From positions 1 through 64,000 of the forward strand of contig NZ_JBGUAY010000009.1 of NCBI RefSeq assembly GCF_041821025.1: DNA of 64,000 nucleotides, given 5' to 3'. Shown here piece by piece: positions 45,545-46,685 of this stretch. This DNA comes from Egicoccus sp. AB-alg6-2. GTDB lineage: Bacteria; Actinomycetota; Nitriliruptoria; Nitriliruptorales; Nitriliruptoraceae. The position numbers were made by a program, and so were the translations under genes. Under the pieces are notes generated by a model. It ran no database searches, was not told the origin of the DNA, and worked only from the letters and a program-made list of their open reading frames with translations. Within the stretch, counting starts at the first letter, position 1; every line of letters begins with the position of its first letter.

Positions 45545-45594
45545 GGAAGGGTGCATCCTGACGCGCAAATGCCCGAGTCAGGATGCACGCTTCC
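45545..45594. repeat. Left palindromic end of the DUF559 cassette
   Basis: Arm GGAAGGGTGCATCCTGAC (45545-45562) pairs with GTCAGGATGCACGCTTCC (45577-45594) at 17 of 18 positions around a 14-base loop; the central 12 bases of each arm are perfect. The right arm contains the stop codon and last codons of the AbiEi/DUF559 gene. It may also end transcription of fadB. Confidence 0.92.
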
Positions 45595-46495
45595 GCGCGC
45601 GTGAGGCGAGCACGGCGGACAGCAGCACGACGAAGTCGTCCCACTCGCGGTGGAACATCTCCCACGTCAACGGCAACACCACCCACTGGTCGGTCGCCGC
45701 GATGGCATTCTGTCGAGCGACGTCGCGCCGGAGTTGCGTCACCGTCGAGTGAAAGCTGAAACCGAGGCATTCGACGGCGACGCCCAGCGCCGACCAGACG
45801 ATGTCGAGACGGCGGACGCCGTCACGCGTGGCGACCTCGCCTTGCTGCCCATCCGGTTCCAGACCCGCCTCCTTCAGGCGCGCGACGACACGGTGCTCGA
45901 AGCCCGAGTCCGAGCCATCGTCGGCGAGCAGCGAGACGACCCGGCGCAGCTGTGCCCGTCCGCGGAATCGGCGGTCGCGTTGCAGCAGCGCCGCAGCCTC
46001 CGACAACGCCATCCGACGCCGCAGACGCACGTCGATCGCGACGTTGGTGAGCGTCGTTTCGTCGGCCAAGCCCGCCAACTCGCGCAGCAGTCGGACCTGG
46101 GTCACGACCTCGAGGCCGTCGACCACGGTGACGTCACCACTGGGCAGCTGGCGGTAGCGGCGCGTGGTGACGCGGTCTCCCTCGACGGCGGCGACGCCAA
46201 CTGGTCGCAGCAGCTCGAGCTTGGTCGGCGCGGCGCGCCGGAGTCCATGGAGTGCGGCCGCGGACCAGCCCGTGACCACGCTGCGCGGGTACGCCAACAG
46301 CGCTGCCTGCAGACGTGCCTGCAGGGTCTCCGCAACGCCCGGCAGCAGCCAGCAGCCGGGCGCCAGCTCGGACCAGCTCTCGCGGCAGGCGCGTGACGCC
46401 AAGGTCGATGGCGACAGACCGGCGTCCCGCGCACAGACACGCGAGACCACGCCGTGTTGTCGGCCAGCGATCGTGTGCAGCGCGCTCCAGGTCAT
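45578..46495 (-). CDS. AbiEi-like wHTH plus DUF559 (Vsr-like nuclease fold) protein
   Basis: 305 residues. The N-terminal 90 or so resemble the AbiEi antitoxin fold: HTIAGRQHGVVSRVCARDAGLS, a winged helix, then VTGWSAAALHGL. The C-terminal part (about 205-300) fits DUF559 of the restriction-endonuclease-like superfamily: GFEHRVVARLKEAGLEP, RRLDIVW, VAVECLGFSFHS and RRDVARQNAI. The acidic pair Asp/Glu is kept, but the usual D-G after the glutamate is L-G. No AbiEii toxin gene is adjacent, so this is not an ordinary type IV toxin-antitoxin pair. ATG 46495 starts the conserved domain. The last codons and stop lie in the left palindrome. Confidence 0.8.
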   Translation of the reverse strand: MTWSALHTIAGRQHGVVSRVCARDAGLSPSTLASRACRESWSELAPGCWLLPGVAETLQARLQAALLAYPRSVVTGWSAAALHGLRRAAPTKLELLRPVGVAAVEGDRVTTRRYRQLPSGDVTVVDGLEVVTQVRLLRELAGLADETTLTNVAIDVRLRRRMALSEAAALLQRDRRFRGRAQLRRVVSLLADDGSDSGFEHRVVARLKEAGLEPDGQQGEVATRDGVRRLDIVWSALGVAVECLGFSFHSTVTQLRRDVARQNAIAATDQWVVLPLTWEMFHREWDDFVVLLSAVLASRARKRAS

Positions 46496-46575
46496 GCCGG
46501 CAGCATCGCGGTGGTGAACCGCCTGCGGTGATCCGGCGCGTTTCGGACCGTGGATGAGCCCGGCCGAGTGCATGC

Positions 46576-46613
46576 GTGCATCCCGCCCTGACTCTGTGCG
46601 CGTCAGGATGCAC
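46576..46613. repeat. Right palindromic end of the DUF559 cassette
   Basis: GTGCATCC (46576-46583) pairs with GGATGCAC (46606-46613), and CCTGAC (46587-46592) with GTCAGG (46602-46607) in register with a short insertion. The outer arm 46597-46613 is the exact inverse of the left end. The inner arm is less perfect than in the left copy, as if decayed. Confidence 0.85.
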
Positions 46614-46636
46614 GAATCCGGCGGGAGCCGCGAAAA

Positions 46637-46668
46637 CGTCCGGCCGGCGCGTCTGCGCCGGCCGGACG
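46637..46668 (-). terminator. Intrinsic terminator of gltA
   Basis: Perfect 14-bp stem (CGTCCGGCCGGCGC with GCGCCGGCCGGACG) around a 4-base loop, 18 bases past the gltA stop on the minus strand, followed on that strand by TTTTCG. This is the clearest rho-independent terminator in the window. Confidence 0.88.
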
Positions 46669-46685
46669 GAATCATCGCGGTGGGG

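Follow-up and report, generated by a model that had tools for sequence, protein, structure and literature searches.

An AbiEi-nuclease fusion gene associated with its own type of dispersed extragenic palindromes in Egicoccus and other Actinomycetota

REP palindromes have, to our knowledge, a single known class of cognate enzymes, the RAYTs. The RAYT is encoded by a vertically inherited, single-copy gene that duplicates dispersed palindromes (PMC8049555) and is a resident of its genome, flanked by its own palindrome type (PMC8049555, PMC3733652). Other described proteins resemble the one reported here in part of their structure. AbiEi antitoxins and their mycobacterial relative Rv2827c bind 23-bp inverted repeats without cross-binding (PMC7319586). 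The Vsr-like EDxHD homing endonucleases, for which PMC3943268 provides both the family name and the mechanism, dimerize on a very long target. VsrA of Caulobacter is, like the gene studied here, of the chromosomal DUF559 type; it is a Vsr-like nuclease that was studied in connection with how cells without a cytosine methyltransferase respond to DNA damage, and the accessible part of that paper makes no mention of palindromic repeats (PMC12907096). A link of DUF559 or AbiEi proteins with palindromes, REP, or RAYT was not described in the searchable literature, a body of text that excludes most subscription-journal papers and preprints.

The locus considered here lies in a 64,000-nucleotide stretch of DNA from Egicoccus sp. 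AB-alg6-2 (assembly GCF_041821025.1, contig NZ_JBGUAY010000009.1, positions 1 to 64,000), referred to below as the window. Its features are listed in Table 1. A 17-base sequence (GTGCATCCTGACGCGCA) and its exact inverted copy, spanning 1,063 bp outer to outer, bound the locus, and this part of the original prediction was reproduced to the base. Each end had also been described as a palindrome in itself. That holds for the left element, in which 17 of 18 positions pair around a 14-nt loop and the fold energies of the two strands (-41 and -38 kcal/mol) correspond to a z of about -6.2 against shuffled sequences, but only in part for the right element, which is homologous to the left one but degraded (two mismatches to the stem at 46576-46587; fold z, -0.6 to -1.4). 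The stem 12-mer has four exact copies genome-wide, three of which are at the window locus, and a fuller homologous copy of the palindrome is found at C5:101450-101495 of the same genome. A T-tract was absent from the palindromic elements of the window. Immediately 3' of gltA there is a perfect 14-bp hairpin (46637-46668), which is probably the gltA terminator and unrelated to the palindrome family. Another pair of stem-like 12-mers in the same genome (contig C4, loci L003 and L012) was set aside, its sites having neither a palindrome nor a related gene between them.

Table 1. Coordinates of the features of the AbiEi-nuclease locus in the window.
Feature	Position	Strand	Description
Left palindromic element	45545..45594	.	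3' side of gene; stem GTGCATCCTGAC / GTCAGGATGCAC
17-nt exact shared sequence, left copy	45551..45567	+	
AbiEi-EDxHD nuclease gene	45578..46495	-	305 aa; residues 1-191 AbiEi-like, 195-305 Vsr/I-Bth0305I-like nuclease
Right palindromic element	46572..46614	.	5' side of gene; degraded inverted copy of left element
17-nt exact shared sequence, right copy (inverted)	46597..46613	-	

The natural start of the gene is probably the ATG at 46495, where its homologs begin; a 365-aa open reading frame starting at 46675 was rejected as too long. With this start, the right palindrome lies outside the gene, at a distance of about 80 bp on its upstream side, and the stop codon (TGA at 45578-45580, minus strand) falls inside the left palindrome, as originally noted. 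PADLOC AbiEi models matched the N-terminal part of the protein (1.4e-17) and the Pfam model MTES_1575 matched its C terminus below the model's cutoff; in several relatives, DUF559, MTES_1575, AbiEi_4, or AbiEi_1 was matched above the cutoffs. An AlphaFold2 model built from 56 homologs had a mean pLDDT of 94.6. Its AbiEi-like part aligned with the whole of the Streptococcus AbiEi antitoxin structure (6y8q; Z 14.2), residues 197 to 301 with the catalytic domain of the homing endonuclease I-Bth0305I (Z 12.1), and residues 195 to 300 with Escherichia coli Vsr (Z 9.8). As modeled, the protein thus consists of a complete DNA-binding module of the AbiEi type and, fused to it, a nuclease of the EDxHD (Vsr/I-Bth0305I-like) kind. 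Across the 56 aligned sequences, whose mean column identity is 29%, the catalytic-type residues are D231 (56/56), H249 (55/56), D258 (55/56), E242 (51/56), and E200 (40/56, i.e., missing in 16 family members). Since the E-D-x-H-D pattern of Vsr-like homing endonucleases is matched, the nuclease is probably active; the residue-by-residue match was made in the present analysis and not in PMC3943268. The gene differs from I-Bth0305I in lying outside any intron or intein, in having AbiEi as its DNA-binding part, and in the dispersal of its repeats through the host genome. It differs from AbiEi antitoxins in the nuclease fusion, in the palindromes that flank the gene on either side and also occur elsewhere in the genome, and in the lack of a toxin: as originally noted, there is no adjacent AbiEii nucleotidyltransferase, the neighbors in the window and the congeners being gltA and fadB.

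A homolog was present in 49 of 61 genomes (the window's own genome and its relatives), often as several diverged paralogs. The window's genome has two further members (C6:187428 and C6:71910), and the repeat that flanks each of them is different and palindromic (56 nt, 79% identity, and 94 nt, 91% identity, respectively), so that each of the three members has a palindrome of its own. With the 99th percentile of mismatched flank pairs as the cutoff, two-sided repeats were detected at 55 of the 88 loci with usable flanks. The window locus is not among the 55, as the start of its match lay upstream of the right palindrome. A more stringent comparison of near and far flanks was passed by 40/67 loci next to the gene and 0/67 further out. 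In families elsewhere in the phylum, about 23 of 39 loci had two-sided repeats; one of these genomes (G238) encodes a protein with 71% identity to Gordonia hirsuta, which makes Actinomycetota the probable phylum. Strong stems (score of ≥12) occurred in either flank in 47% of cases near the gene versus 5% far from it. Chance repeats are ruled out by the cross-locus, far-flank, and reversed controls. The flanking elements are gene specific, mostly 40 to 100 nt long, usually palindromic, and often in tandem, with the flanking copies ~1.0 to 1.6 kb apart in direct (38 cases) or inverted (18 cases) orientation; about two-fifths of the homologs lack the two-sided repeat. In Gordonia, a strong palindrome accompanied 8 of 11 homologs on one or both sides. 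The number of such genes per Gordonia species (loci L225 to L235) ranges from one to several, some of them with a one-sided strong palindrome, and locus L090 has arrays of several tandem CCGGGTGCAG-type units both upstream and downstream of the gene. Across genomes, the similarity of the proteins was correlated weakly with that of their palindromes (r = 0.096), a value reached in none of 1,000 permutations; the weakness of the correlation is attributable to the palindromes diverging quickly. The original proposal, in which a nuclease-like gene is linked with palindromes of its own, is borne out in the form of an AbiEi-plus-Vsr-like fold with private repeats at most of the homologous loci.

The palindromes are not confined to the ends of the gene, as a unit consisting of the gene and its two ends would have implied, but are found singly or in tandem at extragenic positions throughout the genome. 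For 15 palindrome types in 11 genomes, there were 1 to 78 matches per genome among the matches listed, flanking copies included. Ten further types in nine genomes gave 110 matches, whereas their ten reversed controls gave none; the matches were all restricted to their own genome except for one type also found in another genome of the same genus. The type belonging to C6:71910 occupies about 22 dispersed places in the window's genome in addition to its two flanking copies and has few matches in the congeners, some of them beside the homologous genes of those species. Congener G002 has its own palindrome type in about 28 places, and at least three genes with three palindrome families, all of them dispersed, are present in Gordonia hydrophobica NBRC 16057; reversed controls had no hits in these searches either. 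The 22 dispersed copies that were inspected all lay outside called genes (coding density, ~0.87; genes called with a simple codon model of our own construction), commonly between convergent genes. The window's own type is represented in its genome by the two flanking copies and one solo copy; this palindrome family is nearly extinct there. Widespread occurrence of the palindrome without a linked gene, which had been named as grounds for abandoning the original prediction, is literally what was found; yet the copies are distributed like a repeat family that has a single resident gene, and unlike an unrelated repeat.

The distribution of the copies bears on two readings in which the palindromes are not copied by the protein. 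The gene could encode a solitary AbiEi-type regulator, with the flanking palindromes acting as autoregulatory operators, the dispersed ones as binding sites of a regulon or nucleoid-type sites, and the nuclease being incidental or used elsewhere. AbiEi and Rv2827c do bind inverted repeats that precede the genes encoding them (PMC7319586), and the N-terminal 191 residues are AbiEi-like. However, the repeats also lie 3' of the gene, often as tandem arrays, the dispersed copies are mostly between convergent gene ends rather than at promoters, and the catalytic residues are strongly conserved, so we regard this reading as unlikely. A role in defense, in which the palindromes would mark self sites and modulate a resident restriction-like nuclease that attacks invading DNA, appears highly improbable. 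Although nuclease domains of a similar kind are known from large anti-phage proteins and AbiEi occurs in defense loci, the gene sits between gltA and fadB with neither a partner gene nor a defense neighborhood, its relatives are rare in plasmid and phage collections, and a dispersed copy number ranging from one to about 28 is hard to square with self-protection.

The gltA-fadB junction contains the AbiEi-nuclease gene in all four congeners (G000, the window's own genome, to G003), and the palindromes there differ. Those of G000 are of the GTGCATCCTGAC type; in G001 this type is found 3' of the gene, with no more than a degenerate remnant 5' of it; G002 has ACGCACGTGCGTCC; and G003, whose protein is only ~35% identical, has GTTGCTTCCTGCAC. 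Three palindrome types thus occur at one junction, with both ends matching in G000, G002, and G003, and cross-scores showed that the two ends of G002 agree with each other, as do those of G003, but that ends of different types do not, i.e., the two ends change in concert. The G001 gene (L029, 1072-1915) looks decayed: the reading frame of its nuclease part is disrupted, and a segment is absent from around the middle. In G002 (L026, ~1360-1490), short GACCCGGAAAGCGCAACG-like and CCCCCGAAGGCGCCAGG-like tandem repeats lie between the gene and the 3' palindromes.

Dispersed sites vary as well. G003 carries about eight dispersed palindromes of the window type despite the other type at its resident gene. 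Orphan copies of the window type in G003 are located at C2:148205, C1:501450, C5:389830, C5:328859, C1:182501, C14:46941, and C13:36630. One G003 copy lies beside aspS, the site of the only solo copy in the window's genome; the palindrome at this site was absent from G001 and G002. At another site, the palindrome-bearing spacer measures 116 nt in G000 and ~9 nt in G001 and is shorter in G002. The congener spacers are too divergent for target site duplications to be read. Because both the type and the presence of palindromes vary at orthologous sites, the palindromes come and go while the gene stays.

These comparisons speak against the self-contained mobile cassette that had been proposed from the window, in which the gene and its terminal palindromes would move as one, like a transposon. 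The gene does lie between inverted or direct copies ~1.0 to 1.6 kb apart, and several diverged paralogs per genome are common. Nevertheless, the junction is the same in four of four congeners while the palindrome type differs between species, palindrome types have one gene but many solo copies, and the prevalence of direct over inverted ends (38 versus 18) is unlike that of a classical transposon. An empty site of the gene was not found among the four congeners. We consider such a cassette very unlikely.

The analogy with REP/RAYT elements drawn in the original prediction stands, albeit with a different enzyme class. Like REPs or REPINs with their RAYT, the elements are short extragenic palindromes in many copies, often paired or arrayed, and the gene is flanked by its own palindrome type and, as for RAYTs, inherited vertically. 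Unlike RAYTs, which are Y1 HUH proteins (TnpAREP; PF01797), the window protein combines an AbiEi module with an EDxHD nuclease and is unrelated, and unlike many REPs, only 9 of 56 elements carry a GTAG tag. A RAYT acting as a hidden mobilizer was rejected: Y1_Tnp (PF01797) was not found in ten genomes by a search that recovered the E. coli protein as a control. Given the REP/RAYT-like pattern, the negative search for a Y1 transposase in those ten genomes, and the unrelated protein, the system works like REP/RAYT without being one. The palindromes might instead be ordinary REPs or terminator-like hairpins spread by another enzyme, with the nuclease gene tolerating or exploiting them. Many copies are indeed at convergent gene ends, where hairpin terminators also occur, and window-type copies persist in G003, whose resident gene has another type. 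This seems quite unlikely to us, however, in view of palindrome types that are private to their own gene across dozens of divergent genes, the failure to find a RAYT-type transposase in the ten genomes, and the window elements' lack of a T-tract.

The association of the gene with its palindromes is observed directly, and we think it somewhat probable that the gene is a dedicated partner of dispersed, REP-like extragenic palindromes, encoding a nonhomologous nuclease that recognizes them and promotes their spread or homogenization. The protein joins a complete AbiEi-family module to a homing-type EDxHD nuclease, as its sequence and predicted structure indicate, and most, though not all, of the homologous genes have their own palindrome beside them; in the genomes searched, more copies are dispersed, in intergenic gaps where these were checked. 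The AbiEi module may recognize the cognate palindrome, given the specific binding of AbiEi and Rv2827c to inverted repeats (PMC7319586). The nuclease could then nick or cut at or beside the palindrome, either as a duplex or as an extruded hairpin, and repair might copy the palindrome to new gaps, gene conversion homogenizing the copies. Cut-and-repair copying with conversion would explain why the ends match within a species and differ between species at one locus. The gene itself stays put at the gltA-fadB locus, like RAYTs.

More tentatively, and with a little less than even confidence, we suggest that these genes may represent a phylum-wide second class of REP-like systems, with a homing-type nuclease, an AbiEi reader, and cut-and-repair copying, in which protein and palindrome change together in each lineage to give dozens of private targets. 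It would be a new kind of system if copying by a homing-type nuclease were shown; until then, it is a variant of the known REP/RAYT pattern. The findings also open to experiment the question of how short palindromes can spread through a bacterial genome when no HUH transposase is involved. If the proposal is true, systems consisting of a resident protein and its palindromes arose more than once, dozens of natural protein-target pairs would be available for learning how AbiEi-type proteins choose their DNA, and a common "DUF559" protein family in actinobacteria would have a likely function.
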